A DNA stretch of 64,000 nt from Siniperca chuatsi (taxonomy: Eukaryota > Chordata > Actinopteri > Centrarchiformes > Sinipercidae), in the NCBI RefSeq assembly GCF_020085105.1, contig NC_058058.1, positions 552,001-616,000 of the forward strand. Reading direction: 5' to 3'. Each line of letters starts with the position of its first letter. Position 1 is the first letter of the stretch. Shown piece by piece: positions 14,715 to 57,030 of this stretch. Position numbers and translations under genes: made by a program. The notes under the pieces were generated by a model, which was given only the letters and a program-made list of their open reading frames with translations, made no database searches and was not told where the DNA came from.

Positions 14715-15800
14715 ACATTCAATTCAATTCAATTTTATTTATTTAGCGCCAAATCATAACAGAAGTTATCTCAGGGAGGCACAATGCAAAGACCACGTAG
14801 AATTATTATTATTATTATTTTAAATAAGTAGAATAGTAATTGTAGTGTTAATATTATTAAATTAGTAATAATAGGAATGACAGCTATAGGAAAAGTAATG
14901 TCAGTATTAGTAACAAAGCCAATAACAACAACTGTAGCAGCAGTTGTCGAGCAGGAACACGGGGCAGCAGGTGGCCCACAACCACAGATCCAGACTCTGC
15001 AGGAACACGGGGGCAGCAGGTGGCCCACAACCACAGATCCAGACTCTGCAGGAACACGGGGGCAGCAGGTGGCCCACAACCACAGATCCAGACTCTGCAG
15101 GAACACGGGGGCAGCAGGTGGCCCAATCCAGACTCTGCAGGAACACAGGGGCAGCAGGTGGCCCACAACCAGATCCAGACTCTGCAGGAACACGGGGCAG
15201 CAGGTGGCCCACAACCACAGATCCAGACTCTGCAGGAACACGGGGGCAGCAGGTGGCCCACAACCACAGATCCAGACTCTGCAGGAACACAGGGGCAGCA
15301 GGTGGCCCACAACCACAGATCCAGACTCTGCAGGAACACGGGGGCAGCAGGTGGCCAACAACCACAGATCCAGACTCTGCAGGAACACAGGGGCAGCAGG
15401 AGGCCCACAACCAGATCCAGACTCTGCAGCTCCGGAGGCAGAAATACCTGCTGAAAGCGACAGAAGGAGAGAGGAGAGAGACGAGAAAGCACAGAACTAC
15501 GGGAGAGAGAAGATGTCGAGTTAGTAACATGCAGTAATGGGATAAAAATACATACAGACGGAGAGGGAGAGGAGGAGAGAGGAGAGAGGTGCATCATGGG
15601 AAGTCTCCCAGCAGTCTAGGCCTATAGCAGCATAACTAAGGGATGGTTCAGGACTCACCTGAGCCAGCCCTAACTATAAGTTTTATCAAAGAGGAAAGTC
15701 TTAAGCCTACTCTTAAATGTGGAGATGGTGTCTGCCTCCCGAACCCAAACTGGGACCTGGTTTCACAGGAGAGGAGCTTGATAGCTGACATCATAACATA
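14715..15800 (-). mobile_element. L2-type LINE 3' region containing a minisatellite
   Basis: The left edge (CAATTCAATTCAATTTTATT then TATTTAGCGCCAAATCATAA) is the typical 3' terminus of fish L2-type LINEs in minus orientation. The right part (CAGTCTAGGCCTATAGCAGC onward) matches 18840-19030 almost base for base and is the antisense of the 3' end of the LINE coding region. Between them lies the 49-bp tandem array, so the array has expanded inside the LINE's 3' UTR. No reverse transcriptase motif remains in this copy. Confidence 0.65.
14952..15430 (+). repeat. 49-bp minisatellite, about 10 copies
   Basis: The unit contains AACACGGGGGCAGCAGGTGG, CCCACAACCACAGAT and CCAGACTCTGCAGG. Copies differ by one G in the G-run, ACGG versus ACAG, and loss of the CCACAACCACAGA part in one unit (about 15124). 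Long open frames on both strands arise from it, because the unit lacks stops in every frame and 49 is not divisible by three. I do not call it coding. Confidence 0.9.
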
Positions 15801-38490: not shown

Positions 38491-39465
38491 TTTTTGATTT
38501 GTGAGTGAAATCTCAAATCTTTTCTGCAAATGTTGCAACTGAACACTTTCTCTCATGTGTGGACTCTCATGTGTTGAGTCAACTTTGATTTGGAACAAAA
38601 AGCTTTGCCACAGAGGGAGCAGTCAAATGGTTTCTCCCCCGTGTGGGTTCTCATGTGCTCCACGACGTACTGACTACATCTAAAACGCTTCAGACAAAAT
38701 GAACAGCTGAAAGGCTTTTCTCCTGTGTGACATCTCATGTGACGACTTAAACTTTCCCGCCTCGCAAATCTGTTACCACAGACTGAGCAACAGAATGGTT
38801 TCTCTCCAGTATGGATTCTCATGTGTTTCACAAGCTCTGAACTGCATCTGAAATGTTTTTCACAAACTGAACAGCTTAAAGGCTTTTCTTCTTCATGAGA
38901 CATCATGTGTCTCTGCACAGACCTCTTGTGGCCGAATTCTTTACCACACTTGAAGCAACTATATGGTTTGCTGCTACTATACCAAACCACACTACTGACA
39001 GAGTCTTTCTTTCCACATGGATTTATTTTCAGAGAGTTTAAACCTGACTGAGGTTCACTGGTCTCGTTCCAGTCATCACTGTCATCAGTCTCAGAAGAGT
39101 CTCCAGTCTTGTCATCAGTGTCAGGTTGTAAATGTGTATCTGGATCTGAGTTCCTGGCTGGTCCTGGTCCTCCACAGTCCTCTCCATCAGCTCCTGTTTC
39201 CATCTGTTCAGTTTGGCTTTGATGAAGCTGCGTGAGGACTGAGGTTTCTCTTCATCTTCTTCACTCTTCACAGGGACAGGAGCGAATGGGAACTTGGTGA
39301 TATCGGCCTCCTCCAGCCCTCGAAGCTGCTCTCCCTCCTGACTGGTCCAGAGCTCCTCCTGCTCCTCTTTAATGTGTGGGGGCTCTGGGTCCTGGTCCAG
39401 ACTGGGGCTCCACTCCTGCTGCTCTTCTTTAACAACAATTGTTTTTTTGTTGTTTGAGGGTAAAG
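38490..39465 (-). pseudogene. ZNF exon G: decayed 5-finger zinc-finger exon
   Basis: Minus-strand exon starting at 39465 after GTGTTTCAG|CTTTACC, phase 1. It encodes ALPSNNKKTIVVKEEQQEWS, then the standard KEEQEELW and acidic region. Two extra bases (39231-39232, CG) in the SSQLHQ segment break the frame; after them the frame from METGADGED (39203) is open to 38553 with five fingers (CFKCGKEF..., CSVCEKHF..., CSVCGNRF..., CSFCLKRF..., CSLCGKAF...). The stop is a TGA in the HTGEK linker (HT-stop-EK), and in the same frame a further C2HC unit follows (FSCNICRKDLRFHSQIKNHK, about 38540-38480). So one frameshift and one nonsense change are visible. No first exon lies nearby; the phase-1 acceptor matches the donors of F and of the transposase at 51706. 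Confidence 0.8.
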
Positions 39466-39589
39466 CTGAAACACAGACATACAGTTATTAAAGTATATTT
39501 GGAAACTTGAACATATACAGTTCCATGAGATATGGCAAACTCATTGATCTGCTTCAGGCAACTATTGTAATAATCTATTGAAGGTTCCA

Positions 39590-41333: not shown

Positions 41334-41640
41334 TGCTGGAGGTGTGGGCAGCCCGGACACTGCCGACGTGACTGCCCACTCGTGGAGGTCGGACAGGTGA
41401 TTCAGGTTGCCGGCTCTCCGACCCCCTTCCCCCGGCCCAGGGGCGACATACTGTTTCGGTAAGAATCCAAGGGGGTATACACTGGGCAATGGTGGATTTG
41501 GGCTGTACGCAGTCCATTATTCACCAGAACCTGGTTCGACCTGGGGCTTTGGTGAAGGCAGGTTGGGTGGATATTAAGTGTGTACATGGGGATGTTCAGA
41601 TACCCTGTAGTGCTGGTGGAAATTAGACATCAACGGAGAA
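41334..41640 (+). pseudogene. CCHC zinc knuckle and aspartic protease remnant
   Basis: CWRCGQPGHCRRDC (from 41334) is a nucleocapsid knuckle, C-x2-C-x4-H-x4-C. After a frame change, GIHWAMVDLGCTQSIIHQ (from about 41478) is the protease active-site region; the expected D-S/T-G triad reads D-L-G at about 41496-41504. Frames shift again near 41620 and resume as FCVMAAVSSRLTHPLILGTD. Confidence 0.65.
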
Positions 41641-41879
41641 AATTTTGTGTTATGGCAGCGGTTAGTTCCCGCCTGACGCACCCCCTGATTTTGGGTACAG
41701 ATTGGCTTGGGTTTGATAGGTTAGTGAGGCACTGCGTAGGGGTGCATGCACGTCCGTCAGGGACATGGGATGTGTGTGCTGTGCTCAGTGGCGACGCAAG
41801 GTTGTCCGATGCTGCGGATGGGGAGGGGCAACCGGCAGCGCCTCCACAGGAGATGCCGCAGGCTCCTGTGTTACCCTCC

Positions 41880-42625
41880 ATGGAAGATTTTCCACTGGAG
41901 CAGTCTCGTGACGACACTCTATGCTTTGCTTTTGACCAAGTGATAAAAATTGATGGTCATGTGGTGCATCCTGACGCAGCCCAGTCATATCCACACTTTT
42001 CAGTAATCAGGGACAGACTGTACACAGTGAGTCATGACACTCAGACAGGGAAAGAAGTAACACAATTGTTGGTACCAAAAAGCCGTCGGGAAACAGTTTT
42101 CCAGGCAGCTCATTACAACCCGATAGCCGGGCATATGGGGTGTAATAAAACACTAGACCAGATAATGGCCTGATTCTATTGGCCTGGGATTTGGGGAGAC
42201 GTTTGCCGTTGGCCCGAATGTCAGATGGTTAACCAACCAGCCATCCCGAGAGCGCCTTTGCGCCCATTACCATTGATGAGTGCATGTAGATATCTCTTTG
42301 TGTTAGTGGACTACGCAACCCGATATCCCGAAGCAGTGCCATTGCACACCATGTCTGCAAAGAGTGTGGCGCAGGCACAGTTTCAAGTCACCTCCCGAGT
42401 CGGGATCCCGAAAGAGATCCTGCCTGACCAGGGCACCTCATTCATGTCACGCACAATGAGAGAACTTTATGGATTATTGGGCATCAAGTTGATTCGAACC
42501 AGTGTATACCACCCTCAGACCGATGGGCTCATGGAGCGTCTGGAAAAAACTTTGAAGTCCATGATCCGTACATTTGTGCACGATTGGGATAGGTGGCTAG
42601 ACCCTCTGTTATTTGCAGTGCTCTG
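41880..42625 (+). pseudogene. Integrase of the Gmr1-like element
   Basis: PHFSVIRDRLYTVSHDTQTG leads into the zinc-binding domain (HYNPIAGHMGCNKTLDQIMA, then a TGA at 42172, FYWPGIWGDVCRW, CQ). The core follows: LFVLVDYATRYPEAVPLHTM (first Asp), LPDQGTSFMSRTMRELYGLL (second Asp), HPQTDGLMERLEKTL (Glu, with ME for the usual VE). The segment between HH-CC and the core is shortened (MVNQPAIPRAPLRPLPLMSA), so the usual GMDLVGPL block is missing. The C-terminal domain is deleted at about 42625. Confidence 0.75.
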
Positions 42626-42639
42626 GTGACAACGGTGAG

Positions 42640-44085
42640 TGAGAGAGATGAGTTTGGGCCGGAGGTTTCAAAATTGGCCAGTGCCGCCTCGCTCCCTTTT
42701 GACAACCATCGGACGCTGTCCCAGAGAACAGACGTTGCCGAGTTGCAACTGCGTTTTGCCAACGTGTTCTCCCCCCTTCCGGGTCACACCCACCTCATAG
42801 AGCATCACATTGCGACTCACCTGGGAGTGACGGAGGGTTCACAGCCCTACCGGTTGCCTGAGCTCCAGAAAAAATGGTTCAGGAAGAATTAAAGGCCATG
42901 CTGAAGATAGGGGTAATAGAAGAATCCAACAGTGCCTGGTGTAGGGGTCCCATCCTTCTTGCCTACAAGAAGGATGGGACCCCATACGGTTCGGTGTGGA
43001 CTACCGCAAAGTGAATGATGTGTCACGATTTGATGCCTATCCAATGCCTTGGGTCGATGGGCTCCTGGATCGGTTAGGCACCGCTCGTTTTTTCATGATG
43101 CTGGATTTGACCAAGGGCTACTGGCAGATTCCCTTGTCTCCAGAGTCTAAGGGAAAGATGGCCTTCTCTACTCCGTTCAGGTTGTACCAATTTACCACAC
43201 TTCCGTTCGGGTTGTTTGGGGTGCCGGCCACCTTCCAATGTCTCATGGACCGAGTGCTGCATCCGCACACTGTATATGCGGCCGCCTACCTAGATGACAT
43301 TATCATCCACAGAGACAGCTGGGCGGAGCATATGCGGCGGATAGCTGCGGTGCTTGGGTCATTGAGGCAGGCCGGTCTCACCGCCAACCCGAAGAAGTGT
43401 GCGGTTGGACGGAGGGAGGTACGGTATCTGGGGAGGGCAGGTGCACCCCCAGGTAGACAAGACGGCTGCGATTGCCGCCTGCCCTGAAGCACAAGTCAAA
43501 AAAAGAGGTGAGGTGGTTCCTGGGGCTTGCTGGCTATTACCGGTGGTTCATTCCCAACTTCGCAGAGCTGACCAGTCCCTTGACCGATCTCACCCGGAAA
43601 GATGCCTCAGATCCGGTCCAGTAGACGGAGTGGTACCAACTGGCATTCGAGACGGTAAAACAAGCCCTCTGTGGGGAGCCTCTCCTCCACACACCTAACT
43701 TTTCTCTCTTTTATTCTGCAGACTGACGCGTCGAAACAGAGGAGTGGGGGCCGTTTTGTCCCAGCAGGTGCAGGGTGTCGACCACTCGGTCGTATACATC
43801 AGCCGGAAGCTGTCAGAGAGGGGGCCAGGTACAGTACAATTTGGAAAAAGAGTGCCTGGCCATCCGGTGGGCGGTCGAGGCCCCGTGGTATTACCTGCTG
43901 GGGCGCCCATTCACCCTCTGTTCGGACCATGCCCCCCTCCAGTGGCTCCACCACATGAAGGATGCCAACGCCCGGATCACCCGGTGGTATCTGGCTCTCC
44001 AGCCTTTTAATTTCAAAGTGATCCATAGGCCGTGGCGCAGATGGCCGTGGCCGACTTCCTCTCCCGTTCCCATGGGGGGGGAGTA
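42640..44085 (+). pseudogene. Reverse transcriptase and RNase H of the Gmr1-like element
   Basis: RT text runs from HLIEHHIATHLGVTEGSQPY through MDYRKVNDVSRFDAYPMPWV, FFMMLDLTKGYWQIPLSPES, TLPFGLFGVPATFQCLMDRV and AAYLDDIIIHRDSWAEHM (YLDD catalytic box, 43287-43298). After a frameshift at about 43440 the connection and RNase H follow in pieces: FLGLAGYYRWF-like text, QTDAS (about 43720), YNLEKECLAIRWAVEAPWYY, LLGRPFTLCSDHAPLQWLHH and ARITRWYLALQPFNFKVIHR. At least four frame changes and an in-frame TAG at 43622 are seen. Known role: copying the element's RNA; inactive here. Confidence 0.8.
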
Positions 44086-44344: not shown

Positions 44345-45236
44345 CACTGAGAAACAGATGGACACTGGCATTGTAGTTGCACGCAGTACAGGGAGGTGGT
44401 CAGATATAAACACCAACAAATAAATGGCAGCCAGCAGCAGGGGTCCTCTGCTGGTCATAGTGTCATAGAGCTGCGTTCACAAACACCAACTGCCGCTTAA
44501 CAAAGTTTATAAATGCCAGCTGGTGATATAAAATTATATTAAAAGAGGTATAAAGCATCGAACGGCAGGGGTAAAAAGAGACATTATGACCCAATCTGCT
44601 TTCCATACACGATAATGTCACGATAATTTATCAACTTATTGAGGTCAGCAAAGATCATCAAGGTTATGTCCATATATCGTACAATATTGCCCGTCGTGTT
44701 TACATGCGTGTTTATTTGAATAAGAATGTCACCAACATTTTAACCAACATGATGCCAGAATTAAACAGCAGGGTTTTCCCTACATTATAAGACGTGGACA
44801 CAACGCCCTAGAGTTTTTCACAGCTCCTAAACTGAATATAGCAGAAAAAAAACTGCTGAGTCTGAGACACATTTTTCTATCATTTCTGGTTGTACTGCTT
44901 CTGTCCTCTCGTCGTCTGCTCTCTTTGTCTGAGTTACACCATGGGCGGGGCTCAGGTGGCTTAAAAGTTCATTGCTCTTTGAAAGGGTATACTTGCATTA
45001 TTATCTGGGACAATATTATCGTCCAACAAAAGTACATAGTGACAGGCCTACGTACCGAAGGATAAAGACACGCAGGTGTCATAAAATAAAAACAAAACAA
45101 ATCTCCGATAGTCCGGATGTAAACATCAATGGCCATTCTGACTTTACAGCACAGTCAAACATCTCATAACGACCATCACATTCAGCTGCAGCCTCCAAAC
45201 TAAAAGATAAAAGAAACCTAAAACATGAACAAATCG
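44345..45236. repeat. Duplicated flank of the transposase exon, copy 1
   Basis: The blocks 44350-44630 and 45075-45240 match 51030-51300 and 51530-51710 in the same order and orientation (for example GTATAAAGCATCGAACGGCA and AGTCCGGATGTAAACATCAA). They lie 3' of the two transposase exons on the minus strand, so the downstream intron was duplicated together with the exon. No coding sequence here. Confidence 0.75.
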
Positions 45237-46906
45237 TCACATCTTACCTTGATGAATGAAACAGTGTAGTGACATGTGGTCACTATTCTCCTGCTCAAAG
45301 TCCTCCTCGTCATCATCATCATCAAGAAAAGCAAATTCATTGTTAAGTAGCTCCTCTTCATCTTCCTCCTCCTGGGCTGCTTCGCACCGGTTCTCCCGGC
45401 TCCGCTGTCGGAGCTGGGTGAGAGCCTCCCGTCCGGCGGCGCAGGGCTGTCCCTCCCTGAAGCAGAGGATGAGGTCGTCTTCGCTCCCGTCAGTTCTCAC
45501 AGACAGTCCACAAACTTTGAAAGACTGTCTGATCATATCCTTGTCCAGTTTGTCCCAGGCTGCGACCACCCAGTCCACCAGCAGGCGGCGGGCGGGGACT
45601 TTTAGGTTCCCTCCGGCTGTGTATTCCTTATCTGCGTCCCCAGCCGCCCACTGATCGTAGGCATCCTGCAGACTCTGCTTGAAGGGCTGGTTCCACATCA
45701 CAGCAGGAGGTTGGATATATTTAGTGCAGCCTCCCGGGATCACCGCTGTCGTGACGTTGTAGCCACATTTCAGTTCAGCTTTGGTGGCGACACCGGTGTG
45801 GCAGCGGTACGAGTCCCACACCAGGAGCCGCGGGTTGACGTTGAATTTTCCCACCACGGACTGCAGCCAGTCTGCGGTGAGAGCATCGTTCATCCAGCCG
45901 TTCACAGACGTGGAAATCACCGCGCTGGAGATCTGCTGCTGCAGCGCCTTCACTTCACCAGCAGCCTTTCTGAAGACGATATACGGCTTCAGTTTGGTGC
46001 CGTCGGCCTTGGCGGCGAGGACCACAGTAAGATGGCTGTCCTCGTATCTCGTGGTTTTCGGAGCCACACTCTTCGCACCTCGTGTATCAATAGCAGTGGG
46101 GGACACCATGTTAAACAAAACTGCAGTCTCATCCATTACAATGATGCCCCCCTCTAAAATCCTGTTAGAGCTGACCGCCTTGCCAACGTAGTCAACAAAC
46201 GAAACCAGTTTCTCAGTGGGAGGGGTTTCTTCCTGGCTCATGGGGGTGCGACGTCGAAGTGAGAGGTCGTTGCGCTGCAGAAATCTTTGTAGCCAACCCG
46301 TGCTAGCCACAAACATCTTGCCCCCATCGCTCACTGAAGGGTAGATCTCCAGCGCTTTCTTTTTAATCATATTTCTCGATACTCTGTTATGTTTGTCCAG
46401 CATTGAGTAGATCCACTGTGAGAGCCTCCTCTCCAGCTCCAGGCTCACTTTCTTCCTGCCCCCTCCAGTGAGCCGGGCTCTGCTCTTGTCAGCTAACAGC
46501 AGCTTGCCCCTCTGTTTCCTCCAGTCCCTGATTCTTTTTGAGTCAATGTTAAAATGCCGTGCAGTTTTCTCTGCTGAATGTGTCTCTGCATACTGCAAAA
46601 CTCTCTCTTTGAATTTGAAATCAAATTTACGTCTTTCTTTTTCCATCTGTTCAGTTTTACTTTGATGAAATTGCGAGGACTGAAGTTTCTCTTCATCATC
46701 TTCTTCACTCTTCACAGGGACAGGAGTGAATGGGAACTTGGTGATATCGGCCTCCTCCAGCCCTCGAAGCTGCTCTCCCTCCTGACTGGTCCAGAGTTCC
46801 TCCTGTTCCTCTTTAATGTGTGGGGGCTCTGGGTCCTGGTCCAGACTGGGGCTCCACTCCTGCTGCTCTTCTTTAACAATCAGTTTTTTGTCATTTGAGG
46901 GTAAAG
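45237..46906 (-). CDS. Exon F: ZNF N-terminal module fused to pogo-like transposase
   Basis: Minus-strand exon from 46906 (GTGTTTCAG|CTTTACC, phase 1), open to TGA at 45237, or to the strong donor CATCAAG|GTAAGA at 45248. It reads [37 protein letters not shown] and the [15 protein letters not shown] module of the cluster's zinc-finger genes, then at TEQMEK switches in frame to RRKFDFKFKERVLQYAETHS, a psq/CENP-B-type helix-turn-helix. A second HTH follows (WIYSMLDKHNRVSRNMIKKK ... TGWLQRFLQRNDLSLRRRT), then a DDE domain (IIVMDETAVLF, LLVWDSYRCHTG, GGCTKYIQPPAVMWNQPFK) and an acidic tail with DDDDDEEDFEQ. This matches pogo/Tigger-type transposases. The third catalytic residue, expected Asp in IQPxD, is Ala (45702-45704). 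No stop or frameshift in about 550 codons. Likely a DNA-binding, catalytically dead protein; its first exon was not identified. Confidence 0.85.
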
Positions 46907-47324
46907 CTGAAACACAGACATTAAGTTATTAATGTATATTTGGAAACTTGAACATATACAATTCCATGAGACATGACAAACTCATCATGTGAGCTGCTTT
47001 GGAAAATTAATAGGCAACAATTTTTATAATCTAGGCCAGAGTGCATCTGTATACGCCATTGAAATGTAAAGAGATACTTCGGATTTTTTGAAGTGGGGTT
47101 GTATGAGCTACTAATCCATAGTCAGTGTATTACCTGCTGTAGATGGCAGTCGGCACTCCCCCAGTGTGGAGAAGCAGAGAGTTGTACTGATACTCCTGTC
47201 TGCTTCTCCAAACTGGGGGCTATAATAACTGATTATAGCTGCGTTTCAACCGCAGGAACTATCCCCAGCTACTAGGAACCTTTGGAGGAACTGGGTACGT
47301 TTCCACTGCAGGGACCAGGGTCTA

Positions 47325-47667
47325 AATTAAGAAAGGATACAACAGATGGACTGATGACGAATTCCAGACCTTGTTGAGTATTTTTGCTGCGGACAAAATC
47401 CAGAGGGAATTGGAAACGGCGACCCGAAATAATAAGGTGTATGCAAAAATCTCCAGCAAGTTAAGCGAGCTGAACATTGTACACACCAGGGAACAGTGCC
47501 GGGAGAAGATTAAAAAAATCAAACAGGATTACAAGAAAATCAAGGACCACAACAACAGAAGCAGCTCTGACTGGCACACCAACAAGTGGTTCGACCGCCT
47601 GGATGCGTTGCTGGGTCACAGGCCGGCCTTCTCTGGCTCAGCAGCAACTGCATTGTTGGATCCATGA
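47325..47667 (+). pseudogene. Harbinger Myb/SANT-like protein, N-terminal exon
   Basis: GYNRWTDDEFQTLLSIFAAD opens a trihelix-type Myb/SANT domain: REQCREKIKKIKQDYKKIKD and NKWFDRLDALLGHRPAFSGS follow. In Harbinger transposons this accessory protein binds DNA and brings the transposase to the nucleus (known for the superfamily). One base is missing in LLDxMMDD (about 47660), shifting into a TGA after LLDP. No ATG was fixed; the frame is open from about 47325. Confidence 0.75.
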
Positions 47668-48106
47668 TGGACGATACGGAAACAGATGACCAGTGTGTTA
47701 ATTGCTATAAACATTACAGGTAACTGATGTTGTTGCCCTACACAAAAGCCTAACGTTAGCCACGTGCTAACGACAACCGCTAATGCTAACCGCTCATGGT
47801 GTAGAACTGCGGTGTTCGTAAGACAAAAGTTGGCTAAATTGGTCGTACAAAACTGTATTGTGCTAAGGTCACTGCAGTGAGGCAAAACCTAACATTTGTG
47901 TTTTTCACTGTATTCTTCAGATGAAATGCACAGTGAACTGCAGGCCGCCGAGACCAGCGTGTTTACTCCTGCGACCACCAGCAGCCCTCATCCGATGTCT
48001 CCAGCTGAAGCACACAAACGCCGAGGTATAAAGCATTTTGCTTTCTGTATCTTAACGTTACCTTAGTGCTGTTCTGTCTTTAATATTTATTCTTACTGTC
48101 TTATTT

Positions 48107-48590
48107 CAGAATCAGAAATACTTTATTGATCCCCGAGGGGAAACTCTTTCGTTACAGCAGCTCACTGTCACGTCAGTGCACACAGGAAGAGAAGTACTAA
48201 GTAAAAAGCAAAACATATAATACACTTTAATACAGGTCAGAAAATAAATTAAGTACCAAGTGGGTATAAGTATAAAATAAGTGTGAAGTACAAAGTGGGT
48301 TTACTGGTTAATGATAATAATACGGTATAAGGTAATAGTGCATGAACTGTCAAGTTAAGATAGCTTATTAACAGACGGAGGATATTGCACAGCAGTAATA
48401 GAGGTATGAGTAAATATCAATAAATAGGGAATTTTAAACTGAAAAGAGTATATTGCACAATTATGTCAAGTATTGCAGAGATGTAATGATCAATGTCCAG
48501 TTTAATGACTTAGTCATAGAGACTGACACTTAGAGGGAGGAGTGTGATGGCCACAGGCAGGAATGACTTCCTGTGGTGCTTTTTGGGGGG
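48107..48590 (-). mobile_element. Rex1/L2-like LINE 3' end inside Harbinger
   Basis: CAGAATCAGAAATACTTTAT then TGATCCCCGAGGGGAAACTC marks the LINE terminus in minus orientation. The far end (about 48540-48585) still encodes, on the minus strand, the KSFLPVAI segment of the LINE's C-terminus. It splits the intron of the Harbinger Myb gene and is thus the youngest of three nested insertions. Confidence 0.8.
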
Positions 48591-48650
48591 AAATGTATGG
48601 ATTTAATCCATAAACTGTGTTTGTGTATTTACTTATTGTGTTACATTTCA

Positions 48651-48948
48651 ACTTAGGAAAGAGGAAAAGGGATGCTGACTTCCTTGATGTGATGAAGGAC
48701 ATGGACGAAGCTAACCAGACCGTCCTGCAGCAAGGACAGGGACAGCGGGACCAGTACATGCAGCTGTTGCTTGAGAGCCAGGCAGAGGAAAGGGAGTTGA
48801 GGAGGCAAGAGTTGGCATTCCTCTAGTCAGAGGAGGAAGAAACCAGACGGCAGCAGGGAGACTTTCAGGACGAGTTTCTGTCTGTTCTTGGCCAGCTTGT
48901 ACAGTTGCTGAGCCAAAGAAGAAGCTACACTGCCACACCACTGGACTA
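48651..48948 (+). pseudogene. Harbinger Myb-like protein, C-terminal exon
   Basis: GKRKRDADFLDVMKDMDEAN and QLLLESQAEERELRRQELAF form the charged helical C-terminus of the Myb-like protein. A TAG (48823-48825) interrupts it; the frame continues as SEEEETRRQQGDFQDEFLSV to TAA at 48946-48948. Confidence 0.7.
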
Positions 48949-49313
48949 AAGACTGCTGCTTGCCCCTCTTGTTTTTGTTGTACCTGCTTACTTTACACTT
49001 ATTATATAAGTTACTAGAATTATGCAGCTGTGACAATTTTTATTGATAAATGGCAGCTACAATGCATACACTTTCACACATCAGCTCTGTAAACAGTAAT
49101 CTGACAGGCTACTACAATGTGTTCAGAAACCTCATTAGACCTGTACCTGCGTCTAGCCCCTCTGCCTCCACAGTGGATGGCAGTACACCGTCAGGCTGGT
49201 TTAACGTAGTGGCACCCCGTTCTTCTCTGTACTCATCACCCTTCATTTCAGAGGTTATGCAGAATACAACATGCTAGCAAAAAGGATTTGACCTTGTGTA
49301 TGTTGCAGTCATT

Positions 49314-50462
49314 TCATTTTAGCAAGCACCTCCATCTGCCCTTCAGTCTGCCAAAAGCGTTTTTAACCACCACCCTGGTTCTGCTTGTTTTGTGGTTGTA
49401 CACAAGTTGCTGGGGTGTCAATCGTCCATTGTCTGTGAAAGGTTTCATCAGCCAGCTCTTCAAAGGATCGGCTGCGTCACCAAGGATATAGTACCCCGCA
49501 TCATGTCCACAAATATTTTTTGTTTCATGAGGGAGCAGCAAACCCATGTCCACTACACCCCATAACCCCGACAAGCGCAGCACTCCCTGCCGCTCCGATA
49601 AAAACATTCCAAAAGAGACCACTTCCACCCACGACAGCCTGCAGGATGATCGAATGCCAGCCCTTGCGGTTGAAATACTCTGTGTGATATTCCTCTGGTC
49701 CAAGAATAGGGATGCGTGATCTATCAATTGCACCTACACACTGTGGTAACCCCCATCTTTGCTCAAAATATGCCACTATTTTCTTTAACTTTTCACTGTT
49801 TAACTTCTAACTTCTGCTATGAGTACCTTCTCAACAGAGGAGCAGAAATCGTGTACACGGTGGCACACCGTAGTAATGCCAACTCCAAATAAGTGAGAGA
49901 TGCTCCCGTACTCTGAGTTGGTCGCAAGTTTCCACAGTGCAATGGCGATTCTTTTTTGAATGGGTTCACAATAGCGATAGTTTGTGTCACGTCTTCACAG
50001 GTCTGACTGCAATCGACGGCAGAGGTACAGAAATGTGTCCTTAGACATTTGGAAATTCTGTATCCACTGGGCCTCGGTGAAAGTTGGAACCACGGTTTCC
50101 CACCACTCAGTTGCTCTATTGTGTACCCAAACAGTTGGTGAAACATGACGCATTCTGTAGTACTAGAAACACACACAAAGGTGCCAAAAATAAGTCGATG
50201 TACTATACAATAACTTATTCACAGTTGTGATTCAATTTACAGTATATATCAACAGCTTACCATTCTTGTTTTTTGTGCCCGATAGCGCCATCTCACGATC
50301 AATCTCCGGAATAGCTCGTGAAATCTGTTTGTTTACTTTACGTCTGGCATTTCCGCTGTTTAGAATCCGCTTTGCTACTACTGCTCGTCTCTTCTCCAGC
50401 ACTGACTCATCAACCCCATTTGCAAAGCAGTAAAACAGCAGCACGACTTGCATCTCCTCCAT
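49314..50462 (-). pseudogene. PIF/Harbinger transposase, broken
   Basis: Exon 1 (50462 to about 50265) starts MEEMQVVLLFYCFANGVDES and ends at a donor GAATG|GTAAGC. Exon 2 (from about 50164) contains YYRMRHVSPTVWVHNRATEW, WKLATNSEYGSISHLFGVGI (HTH region), GAIDRSRIPILGPEEYH (first Asp; the usual GAIDGTHIP), YFNRKGWHSIILQAVV, HDAGYYILGDAADPLKSWLM (second Asp) and NAFGRLKGRWRCLL (final acidic residue VEN reads VKN). Several frame changes (near 50000, 49800 and 49600) and the E-to-K change at VEN leave it inactive. Confidence 0.8.
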
Positions 50463-50799
50463 TGTTTACAGTTGTTGCAGTGTCGCACAAATAATGCCGC
50501 CGTCCGTTGCTTTATGTGGCATCACGTCTTCATGTTACCGCCACCCACTGGACTGGAGTATTGTTGTATAGTCGCGCGCAAAAATGACATGTAAAAACAG
50601 ACGTTGCTTTTTCATACGTAATTTGCCTAATCTTCGTGGGTCTTCAGACCTCGGTGGAAATGCAGACAACAGTGGGCTGAAGAAACTTTTTAGTTCTTGA
50701 AAAGAAGTTGCTGGGAAAAAAAGTTCTTGGTACTTTTGGTGGAAAAGCAGCTTATGGTACCGCATACAACCCCACTTCAAAAAACACAAACTATCCCTT

Positions 50800-51705
50800 T
50801 AAAATAATTTTGCTTCAAATTTTGCTCTGGCCTCTTCCTTAAGTTTATATTCAACATAATACCTTCTTATCTCAATGAAATGTACTGAAACAAATGTATA
50901 TGTGACACAAAAAGGCAATTTATTATTTGGCCAGTAAAAAAAAGGCTTGGCCGGTGGATTTTTTTCATCTAACAGTCCCCTTGGCCAGTGAGTCAAAAAG
51001 GTAATTTCGGACACTGTTTCACCGGCATGAACAGACGCACACTGGCGTTGTAGTTGCCGTACAGGAAGGCGGTCAGATGTACAAACCCAGGAATAAACAG
51101 CAGTCGGCAGCAGGGGTCCTGGCGCGCCTTCTGCCGGTCACAGTGTGCAGGCGCATAGAGCTGTATTCACAAACGCAAACTGCCGCTTTCAACGAGGTTT
51201 ATAAACGCCAGCTGGCGATATAAAACTATATTAAAAAAGAGGTATAAAGCATCGAACGGCAGGGAAAGAGACAAATTATGACCCAATCGGCTTTCCATAC
51301 AGAGTGTATCGGAATGAATGAATCCAGGTTTAAGCATCAGCACTGAAAGCCTATTTTCCTAAAACAAATTGTATTATAGTAGATTACAGTAGGCTTAAAG
51401 ATTGCATTTTAAAAGTGTATATAAGTGTATATGTATTATAAGTGAACTTGTCAAATGCCATGTCAAATTTACACACATGATTTAATTTGTGTGAAGTGTG
51501 AACAGTCACATAGGTAAATACCCCCAGGTGTCATAAGATAAAAACAAATCTCAGATAGTCCGGATGTAAACATCAATGGCCATTCTGACTTTACAGCACA
51601 GTCAAACATCTCATAACGACCATCACATTCAGCTGCAGACTCCAAACTAAAAGATAAAATAAGATTGGATATTGTCTAAAACATGAACAAATCATCACAT
51701 CTTAC
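50800..51705. repeat. Duplicated flank of the transposase exon, copy 2
   Basis: 51030-51300 and 51530-51710 match the flank of exon F (44350-44630 and 45075-45240). Between them is unmatched AT-rich sequence (about 51300-51530), and 50800-51030 shows no gene. Confidence 0.7.
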
Positions 51706-53085
51706 CTTGATGAATGAAACGGTGCAGTGACATGTGGTCACAATCCTCCTGCTCAAAGTCCTCCTCATCATCATCAAAAACAACAAATTCATTGTTAAGT
51801 AGCTCCTCTTCATCTCCCTCCTCCTGGGCTGCTTCGCACCGGTTCTCCCGGCTCCGCTGTCGGAGCTGGGTGAGAGCCTCCCGTCCGGCGGCGCAGGGCT
51901 GTCCCTCCCTGAAGCAGAGGATGAGGTCGTCTTCGCTCCCGTCAGTTCTCACAGACAGTCCACAAACTTTGAAAGACTGTCTGATCATATCCTTGTCCAG
52001 TTTGTCCCAGGCTGCGACCACCCAGTCCACCAGCAGGCGGCGGGCGGGGACTTTTAGGTTCCCTCCGGCTGTGTATTCCTTATCTGCGTCCCCAGCCGCC
52101 CACTGATCGTAGGCATCCTGCAGACTCTGCTTGAAGGGCTGGTTCCACATCACAGCAGGAGGTTGGATATATTTAGTGCAGCCTCCCGGGATCACCGCTG
52201 TCGTGACGTTGTAGCCACATTTCAGTTCAGCTTTGGTGGCGACACCGGTGTGGCAGCGTACGAGTCCCACACCAGGAGCCGCGGGTTGGCGTTGAATTTT
52301 CCCACCACGGACTGCAGCCAGTCTGCGGTGAGAGCATCGTTCATCCAGCCGTTCACAGACGTGGAAATCACCGCGCTGGAGATCTGCTGCTGCAGCGCCT
52401 TCACTTCACCAGCAGCCTTTCTGAAGACGATATACGGCTTCAGTTTGGTGCCGTCGGCCTTGGCGGCGAGGACCACAGTAAGGTGGCTGTCCTCATACCT
52501 CATGGTTTTCGGAGCCACACTCTTCGCACCTCGTGTATCAGTTGACACCATGTCAAACAAAACTGCAGTCTCATCCATTACAATGATGCCCCCCTCTAAA
52601 ATCCTGTTAGAGCTGACCGCCTTGCCAACGTAGTCAACAAACGAAACCAGTTTCTCAGTGGGAGGGGTTTCTTCCTGGCTCATGGGGGTGCGACGTCGAA
52701 GTGAGAGGTCGTTGCGCTGCAGAAATCGTTGCAGCCAACCCCTGCTGGCCACAAACATCTTGCCCCCATCGCTCACTGAAGGGTAGATCTCCAGCGCTTT
52801 CTCTTTAATCATGTTTCTCGACACTCGGTTCTGCTTGTCCCGCATTGAGTAGATCCACTGTGAGAGCCTCCTCTCCAGCTGCAGGCTCACTTTCTTCCTG
52901 CCCCCTCCAGTGAGCCGGGCTCTGCTGGTGTCGGCCGACCGCAGCTGGCCCCTCTGGTTCCTCCAGTACCGGATTCTCTTCGTGTCGATGTTGAAGTGCC
53001 GCGCAGTTTTCTCTGCGGAGTGTGTCTCCGCATACTGCAAAACTCTCTCTTTGAATTTGAAATCAAATTTCCGCCTGGGTGCCAT
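51695..53085 (-). pseudogene. Pogo-like transposase exon, copy 2 (frameshifted)
   Basis: Starts with its own ATG (53085; MAPRRKFDFKFKERVLQYAE) and runs through the same two HTH regions and DDE domain as exon F. One base is missing at about 52258 (GGCAGCGTACGAG versus GGCAGCGGTACGAG in exon F), right after the second catalytic Asp (LLVWDSY), so the frame leaves into VSPPKLN. The rest (CHTGVATKAELKCGYNVTTA onward) stays open in the next frame to TGA at 51695. Ala also replaces the third Asp here (52154-52156). A donor CATCAAG|GTAAGA at 51706 is kept, phase 1, as in exon F. GC-rich promoter-like sequence lies just upstream. It could be a natural first exon disabled by one deletion; a sequencing error at this base would restore it. 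Confidence 0.8.
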
Positions 53086-53440
53086 GCTCCTCGAGTCCGG
53101 ATCAACAAAGTCCTGCTCCCGTCAGTGACTCGCACGGTCCCCGTGCGGCGTTTGGAGAGCCGTCAACATGTTTCATGCAGGTCCGGGTCCGGAACTTCAC
53201 ACTAAACGGGTTTATTCCGCTGGCGTCAGCAAAACACTTAGTTACTTCCCGGAAGTAATTGCTCACATGACACACGAACAGTCCGCGAACCGGGTCCGCG
53301 AACCGGCTCAGAGGTGAAACAAAGACACGGAGCCGGTGTTTGACCGAGCTGAACCAAACCGAAACAACAGGCCAGTTCGGCTGTTTGTTTCCGTTTGAAC
53401 AAAGACATTTAGGGAAGCGAGACAGGTGACCCGGAAGTAA
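53086..53440 (-). promoter_or_regulatory. GC-rich upstream region of transposase copy 2
   Basis: The sequence just upstream of the ATG at 53085 is GC- and CpG-rich and includes CTTCCCGGAAGT (53246 region, an ETS-type palindrome). Exon F has no such sequence next to its transposase part. This supports copy 2 as a first exon with its own promoter, by inference from composition. Confidence 0.4.
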
Positions 53441-55559: not shown

Positions 55560-56075
55560 TCTCCCGCAGATGTAAAGAAACTAACGTTAGTCCCGCATAG
55601 AGACATTTTAGCTCCCCAAAGGAAAATCTACGGAGTCCCCTGAAGGTCACGCCGGGAATGTTTTTGAGGACTTCTGCGTTGCCTCGCAGTAGTTTTCTTC
55701 TTCCGGTCCTTCAGAGCCACGTCTGCTTCCGCTCAGCTGCTGCGGCGCAACACTTTATCAGCCGGCTGAACTTCGCTGTGAGCCGGGCCTGAAGCCTGCT
55801 GGTGTAGTGCTGCGGCTCCACAGCAGGCGCGGCTGTCTAACTAGTGGAAGTAAAGTTAAAGTAATTCTTAGATCGAGAGGTCTCTGCAGAAGAAAGCAGG
55901 ACGCTGATCTGCTTCATCATGAACACTTCCTGTCCTCTGTCCTCTGGACTGTGCTGGACCCAGAGGGGTTCACTGAGGAAGAGGAGGAGTTACAGATGTG
56001 CAGCTGAATCTGCTTCATAAAGCTCATGTGCTGTATTCAAAAAAAGCAACAGACAAGAAGGCGGCTGAAATGCTG
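55560..56075. other. Region after exon H, no gene recognised
   Basis: No finger exon. A short plus frame 55807-56007 has no family features. A minisatellite follows. Confidence 0.35.
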
Positions 56076-56077
56076 CA

Positions 56078-56412
56078 GACAGGCTGTGGTTCTGGTTCTG
56101 TCCCCGACAGAGTCTGTGGTTCTGGTTCTGTCCCCGACACAGGCTGTGGTTCTGGTTCTGTCCCCGACACAGTCTGTGGTTCTGGTTCTGTCCCAGACAC
56201 AGGCTGTGGTTCTGGTTCTGTCCCCGACACAGTCTGTGGTTCTGGTTCTGTCCCAGACAGAGTCTGTGGTTCTGGTTCTGTCCCCGACACAGGCTGTGGT
56301 TCTGGTTCTGTCCCAGACACAGGCTGTGGTTCTGGTTCTGTCCCCGACACAGTCTGTGGTTCTGGTTCTGTCCCAGACAGAGTCTGTGGTTCTGGTTCTG
56401 TCCCCGACAGAG
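56078..56412 (+). repeat. 30-bp minisatellite, about 11 copies
   Basis: The unit reads ACAGTCTGTGGTTCTGGTTC then TGTCCCCGAC, with variants CCCAGAC and ACAGGCTG. As 30 is divisible by three, each frame gives a 10-residue repeat (for example VVLVLSPTQS on plus, SGTEPEPQPV on minus). The variants alternate in a higher-order pattern. Whether any frame is used is unknown. Confidence 0.9.
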
Positions 56413-56502
56413 ACAGCGCTGAACCGCCTGCAGAGACACATCAGGGCCCTCTGTCCTCTGCTCAAAGCAAATTAAAGGAAGCTTCAGTGCTGAAACAGGT
56501 TT

Positions 56503-57030
56503 TCAGAGTCAGAAAGACTTCATTGATCCCCGAGGGGAAACGGTTTGTTACAGCAGCTCGTCTTTACGTCAGCGCACACAGGAAGAGAAGCACTGAGCAA
56601 ATAAAATATAATACACTATAATACAGGTCAGATGCAGTAAGTACCAAGTGGGTTTACCAGTTGATGATAATAATATGGTATAAAGTAATAGTGCATGAAC
56701 TGTCAAGTTAAGTGCAGCTTATTAAGATTATAATGAGACGGAGGATATTGCTCAGCAGGAATAGAGGGATGAATAAATCAATAAATAGGAAAAACTAAAT
56801 ATTGCCCAGAAGTATTAACACAGAATATTGCACAGTTATTCAAGTATTGCAGAGATGTTAATGATCAATGTCCAGTTTAGTGACTTCGGGTCAAACAGAC
56901 TGACACTTAGAGGGAGGAGTTAAAGAGTCTGATGGCCACAGGCAGGAAGGACTTCCTGTGGCGCTCTGTGGCAGAGGGCCTGTCGCTGTAAGTGTGGAGC
57001 AGTAGCTGATGTTCCTTATGGACATCACAT
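56503..57030 (-). mobile_element. Rex1/L2-like LINE 3' end with C-terminal coding remnant
   Basis: TCAGAGTCAGAAAGACTTCA then TTGATCCCCGAGGGGAAACG is the terminus in minus orientation. At 56905-57030 the minus strand encodes the LINE's ERHRKSFLPVAIRLF segment. It is the longest of the three minus-oriented tails in this window and keeps the stop and full 3' UTR. Confidence 0.8.

Follow-up and report, generated by a model that had tools for sequence, protein, structure and literature searches.

The closest described systems are host–transposase fusions of the pogo type. POGK and POGZ are Passer-derived chimeras that arose in monotremes and lobe-finned fish, as far as the available portions of two studies describe them (PMC7386202, PMC9976928), and the Passer family itself is defined, in the available text of the first, by BrkDBD and HTH_Tnp_Tc5 followed by DDE_1 (PMC7386202). 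A further source, consulted in part and citing Cosby et al, 2021, describes fusions that arose from transposons in introns with use of splice sites and gives 106 of them in tetrapods (PMC8290160). The titles listed by our literature search, which left subscription journals mostly outside its coverage, included no paper on a Passer plus zinc-finger fusion in fish, and a paper on metazoan zinc-finger genes (PMC10547256) mentions neither transposase, pogo nor fusion.

We analyzed 64,000 nucleotides of the mandarin fish Siniperca chuatsi (contig NC_058058.1; hereafter the window), where a cluster of zinc-finger exons includes one, exon F, that joins a zinc-finger N-terminal segment to a transposase. 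Judged by its sequence, the locus is a host–transposase fusion of the known kind, but it places the transposase in front, belongs to a ray-finned fish and also has a secondary fused exon. The reading we favor, with a probability of roughly 0.7, is that F was produced when a deletion joined two tandem copies of a gene that was fused beforehand, its first exon being a captured transposase with predicted splicing to a zinc-finger exon; the product of F would bind DNA without transposing.

F resembles POGK in being Passer-derived, in combining BrkDBD, HTH_Tnp_Tc5 and DDE_1 behind a host regulatory segment, and in having lost one catalytic residue (PMC7386202, PMC9976928; available portions). It differs in that POGK carries KRAB, whereas a Pfam scan of the F reading frame detected no such domain; in that the acid missing from POGK is the second (DN35D) and from F the third; and in that the fish gene is also predicted to splice the transposase before zinc fingers. 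With POGZ the fish fusions have in common a Passer-derived transposase and zinc fingers within one protein (same sources, same portions). In POGZ, as described there, the fingers precede the transposase, the triad is intact and there is a single DNA-binding motif, whereas F has two motifs and no finger, and the spliced fish genes place the fingers after the transposase. As in the fusion genes covered by the accessible parts of PMC8290160 and PMC12062965, transposase DNA-binding domains are spliced to a host protein associated with gene regulation; those cases are from tetrapods, whereas here the host is a fish and the transposase forms the first exon, and the secondary fused exon is probably the product of a tandem-copy deletion. 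Finally, fish Passer transposons have the same domains, and other fish proteins of this type are 55–83% identical to F, but around F no convincing terminal repeats were found, a splice donor ends the coding part and the third catalytic residue is Ala.

Results

Exon F joins a zinc-finger segment to a Passer-type transposase

On the minus strand, 45237–46925 forms a stop-to-stop open frame of 562 codons, in keeping with the intact frame of about 550 codons reported in a preliminary description of this DNA. The acceptor TTTCAG lies directly before the exon start at 46906, in phase 1, and the donor AAG/GTAAGA, which follows base 45248, is the one used in NCBI's model. Given this donor and its use in that model, the protein probably does not terminate at the stop codon at 45237. 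Because F has phase 1 on both sides, it could be skipped or included without changing the frame. Exon F and a second transposase copy, E1, end alike (CATCAAG/GTAAGATGTGA). Coordinates are collected in Table 1.

Table 1. Features of the fused exon and its neighborhood (window positions).
Feature	Position	Strand	Remarks
Exon F	45248..46906	minus	1659 bases; acceptor and donor read; zinc-finger N-terminal segment fused in frame to Passer-type transposase
Zinc-finger N-terminal segment (E2N) of F	46637..46906	minus	Homology to cluster finger exons; C2H2 finger absent (Pfam)
Transposase part of F	45248..46634	minus	BrkDBD, HTH_Tnp_Tc5, DDE_1, acidic tail
Third catalytic codon of F, Ala for Asp	45702..45704	minus	ORF position 401, alignment A1
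Intron end before F, resembling intron end before E2b	46907..46999	minus	Acceptors aligned by eye
Start of intron after F, partly like intron after E1	44353..45247	minus	Matches from 45063 and 44353–44609 to E1 flank
E1, the other transposase copy and probably the first coding exon	51706..53085	minus	Own ATG at 53085; F's donor; frameshift near 52257; 94% to F
Putative promoter, CpG-rich flank at 5′ end of E1	53077..53377	minus	CpG observed/expected 1.10
E2b, zinc-finger exon after F in NCBI's model	39041..39465	minus	Acceptor; P0001 residues 702–843 at 39466–39041

The zinc-finger segment covers about 90 codons, after which the frame enters the transposase at TEQM. Down to 46637 it is homologous to the N-terminal segments encoded by the finger exons of the cluster (eight longest matches, 91–95% DNA identity), and together with the TTTCAG acceptor this bears out the earlier observation that F begins like those exons. 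Counted by pattern, C2H2 fingers number 0 in exon F and in the mandarin fish model protein P0001, 5 in P0003 and 8 in P0007. The transposase part has BrkDBD and HTH_Tnp_Tc5, then DDE_1 (Pfam), which is the Passer-type order, and matches E1 (94%) up to 46634. The two matches that flank the junction are far above chance, with E values of 0.0 and 2.6e-145. Because one homology reaches 46637 and the other 46634, the switch is localized to about 3 bases, and its placement inside a single exon at the Met of METGADGED is thereby upheld. Both ATG sites, that of METGADGED in E2 and the start of E1, have ATGG in common, and the join is in frame; codons 2–4 past the junction ATG (EKE versus AP) fit either parent poorly.

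For comparison with other proteins we used 234 listed matches, the best 120 at most from each of 7994, 1401 and 1207 scored candidates. Among these 234, F's own junction occurs in none besides P0001.

E1 lies upstream of F and appears in the predicted gene

The copy that contains E1 spans 51.5–53.1 kb, 4.8 kb upstream of F. It was absent from the preliminary description and explains exon F. CpG observed/expected is 1.10 in the E1 flank versus 0.52 for the window and 0.19 and 0.25 around the start of F. P0001 (LOC122864529, Siniperca chuatsi) is the top match of the F reading frame, at 100% identity, and all 552 whole codons of F recur without a change in this database gene model, which possibly comes from the same assembly as the window. 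P0001 (843 residues) consists of the end of E1 (residues 1–148), then F, then E2b, with the joints HRFIHQ/ALPSNDKK and HCFIHQ/ALPSNNKK; the model begins within E1. The host and transposase coding parts thus stand in one frame in F, or are connected by phase-matched splicing in the E1–F–E2b model. The E2b fingers (frame at 38553–39251) are out of frame with the E2b start.

The introns around F have two affinities. Positions 46637–46999 match 39194–39554 at 91%, covering both the exon start and the intron end, while the intron after F agrees with that after E1 at 196 of 233 aligned bases and in a further block at 79%. Because its intron ends match those of E2b and E1, F can be read as the front of an E2 exon plus nearly the whole E1 coding part, each with its own flank.

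We also considered the cluster's coiled-coil first exon as a partner for F and rejected it: it has five matches in the window, none of them upstream of F on F's strand. Both introns contain other repeats. The one between E1 and F is widened by an element with inverted ends (47158–50801), which is Harbinger-like since it encodes a DDE_Tnp_4 piece (49317–49733). Broken retroelement pieces occupy 41556–43487 in the F–E2b intron, with an integrase core at 42174–42626 and a reverse transcriptase at 42945–43484. Long frames on both strands with repeated peptides at 14771–15615 and 55977–56621 are probably tandem repeats and not genes.

Related fusions in other fishes mostly place the transposase first

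Eight of the 234 listed proteins, from six species, combine a transposase part with a zinc-finger N-terminal or coiled-coil part (P0001, P0003, P0005, P0007, P0111, P0121, P0122 and P0123). In Dicentrarchus labrax (P0003) and Scatophagus argus (P0007, P0121 and P0122), a whole transposase starts with MAPRRKFDF and ends with HMSWHCFIHQ, after which come ALPSN(D/N) and a zinc-finger protein. LPSN(D/N) occurs in 5 of the 234 (3 species), always directly after this transposase end. In Epinephelus lanceolatus P0123, the transposase ends in HTSLHCITHQ; behind it lie a zinc-finger segment and, further on, a piggyBac domain (DDE_Tnp_1_7, E 2.9e-78). The transposase stands at the start in all five listed proteins of these three genera that have both parts. 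Since these predicted proteins join it to the zinc-finger segment at a matching place, the common form would begin with the transposase (E1), to be followed by the zinc-finger exon (E2). The window's E1 agrees with a place at the front, having an ATG of its own and the CpG-rich 5′ flank. We infer from the splice sites in the window that the joints in the other species, where proteins were compared, are splice joints. The three Scatophagus isoforms X1 to X3, presumably from one gene to judge by their entry names, have at least the first 477 residues in common and differ in their later parts.

Two further proteins resemble F in order but not in junction. Xyrichtys novacula P0005 has a transposase start, a zinc-finger segment, a transposase and zinc-finger segments, which is the order of F but with a different junction. 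The two transposase starts in it resemble each other at 88% and the mandarin fish start at 63%, so this doubling looks independent of that in mandarin fish. In Thunnus maccoyii P0111, fingers precede a transposase start at its Met, with a junction unlike that of F. The preliminary description had proposed a transposase capture by this fish zinc-finger family and suggested looking for the fusion in a second species. This proposal is borne out in part: predicted proteins that carry a fusion do occur in three further genera, Dicentrarchus, Scatophagus and Epinephelus, but they run from transposase to zinc fingers, and F's junction is confined to Siniperca among the 234.

The spliced fusions occupy three separate positions in a 30-transposase tree, one for Siniperca, one for Epinephelus, and one for Dicentrarchus together with Scatophagus. 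A single clade of six named rows, including P0016 (exon end present, piggyBac part, no zinc-finger segment), was rejected (p-AU 0.00025), as was one of seven rows without Epinephelus (p-AU 0.024); nine rows, which add P0011, P0013 and P0018 with the same exon end, were not rejected as one clade (p-AU 0.076). These sets were chosen after the tree had been seen, and for that reason a single origin is neither shown nor excluded by the tests. The common exon end argues for one origin of the spliced fusions, while the tree gives no such clade.

Other combinations were seen in the same list. In the groupers' P0123 and P0016, a Passer transposase is joined to a piggyBac domain, with the zinc-finger segment between them in P0123, giving two transposases per predicted protein. 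A related Passer transposase is fused to a different zinc-finger protein (HLQCPLCGHF...) in P0002, P0004, P0012, P0017 and P0035, from Siniperca, Enoplosus, Sebastes, Epinephelus and Cebidichthys; the third Asp is retained in each of the five. The arrangement is reminiscent of CHAMP1, and the fusion is possibly a second, separately kept gene. Passer-type parts followed by C2H2 arrays with other linkers in the eel Conger conger (P0053) and the cyprinid Pseudorasbora parva (P0027) may be either further independent captures or gene-model mergers.

F lacks the third catalytic acid and is a mosaic with E1

F does not have the DD35D triad of Passer elements: the residues are D258, D364 and A401, the last within the motif QPPAVMW (45693–45713), with 36 residues between the second and third. 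Pfam recovered the two helix-turn-helix domains and the DDE domain of the full pogo transposase described earlier, and the acidic tail is present as well, but the catalytic site is thus incomplete. The third acid is missing in 9 of 10 listed proteins with this exon end versus 1 of 94 without it, a count that ignores kinship; P0018 has the exon end and keeps the third Asp. We consider it likely from these features that the gene makes, or once made, a DNA-binding regulator and not a working transposase.

Between F and E1, dN is 0.023 and dS 0.081, a ratio of 0.28 for a comparison of paralogues, not orthologues (453 codons; 7 skipped for gaps or frame). Silent changes are significantly in excess over the whole comparison (p 2e-5) and over its first 200 codons (p 2e-6); the excess is strongest in the DNA-binding half and is not significant in the last 53 codons, which show no sign of constraint (7 of 8 changes nonsynonymous). 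Among the 24 residue differences, 6 look derived in F and 10 in E1, with 8 open. The divergence is a mosaic across 45248–46634 versus 51706–53076: 34 differences fall in the first 375 bases and 2 in bases 620–1290, and one run of 474 bases has no substitution, a length reached in 0 of 10,000 shuffles. This clustering and the unbroken run suggest gene conversion between F and E1, by which the Ala codon may have spread between them. The E1 frameshift lies in a nearly identical stretch, and is therefore either recent or an assembly error.

Because of the frameshifts in E1 and E2b, the local gene may be decaying, and present use of F appears doubtful; the odds that it yields no useful protein in mandarin fish seem about even. 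A tentative reading that we rate slightly below an even chance, and that is compatible with a tandem-copy deletion, is that F is a relic: the recombination was real and the gene is dead, its frame open by chance, through recency or by gene conversion. The frameshifted E1, the out-of-frame E2b fingers, the start of NCBI's model inside E1 and the substitution-free run common to F and E1 are all in line with this, but 553 codons of F remain open, silent changes are in excess most strongly in the DNA-binding half, and inclusion or skipping of F leaves the frame unchanged.

Discussion

We propose that F formed from a gene that was already fused. A Passer-type transposase would first have become a first exon (E1) upstream of E2, with a phase-1 donor and a presumed promoter, the order seen in predicted proteins of three other genera. 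The E1–E2 unit would then have been duplicated in tandem, and a deletion running from the METGADGED ATG of one E2 exon to the initiation codon of the following E1 would have left E1–F–E2b. The breakpoints, the intron types and the ATGG at both sites point to this deletion; no tandem E1–E2 pair was seen. F and E1 would afterwards have exchanged sequence, probably by gene conversion as the clustered differences indicate, and the product, to judge by its two helix-turn-helix domains, might act as a DNA-binding chromatin or transcription factor.

The preliminary description had read F as a primary capture, a pogo transposon having inserted into a zinc-finger exon where its coding region was taken up in frame. 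In favor of this, the exon is uninterrupted, and this kind of transposase has active fish relatives according to the available portion of PMC9976928. However, no transposon 5′ end separates the two parts, the zinc-finger homology coming within 3 bases of transposase coding sequence; the sequence that follows F is the one that follows E1, splice donor included; and neither E1 nor F is surrounded by convincing terminal repeats of the Passer kind, which are short, inverted and bordered by TA target duplications. The best pair of 24-mers around E1 had 8 mismatches versus 6–9 in shuffled controls, in a search that repeats under 30 bases can escape. With no convincing terminal repeats seen in that search and E1-like sequence following F, we reject insertion as the primary event and regard it as very unlikely; F looks instead like the outcome of recombination between tandem copies.

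It is also improbable that F is an artefact of assembly or annotation. The region is repetitive with near-identical blocks, and NCBI's protein, if from the same assembly, gives no independent check, but the join is in frame with the right splice signals on both flanks, and Xyrichtys P0005 has the same order. That the fused exon is ancestral, with E1 and the spliced genes derived by loss of the zinc-finger segment, would accord with the similar orders in Xyrichtys and Thunnus but is hardly credible given the five transposase-first proteins of Dicentrarchus, Scatophagus and Epinephelus and a CpG-rich flank at E1 only.

Fusions of this kind had been described in tetrapods, with POGK and POGZ as pogo examples, in those portions of the literature available; here, a transposase exon stands in a fish zinc-finger cluster. 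Through deletion between tandem copies of a gene with an earlier capture, the window exhibits a route to a fused exon that needs no new insertion. If this is correct, there is a set of living species in which to test how fusions arise, reshuffle and lose enzyme activity. More speculatively, and with rather less than even confidence, a domesticated Passer transposase may serve perch-like fishes as a first exon that can be used again and again, equipped with a promoter and a phase-1 donor of its own and spliced to alternative zinc-finger exons and even, in Epinephelus, to zinc-finger plus piggyBac. In Siniperca, Xyrichtys and Thunnus, tandem copies would have recombined repeatedly into alternating transposase–finger proteins, so that the system would keep generating new DNA-binding proteins. 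The single transposase part common to the three Scatophagus isoforms is consistent with such reuse.
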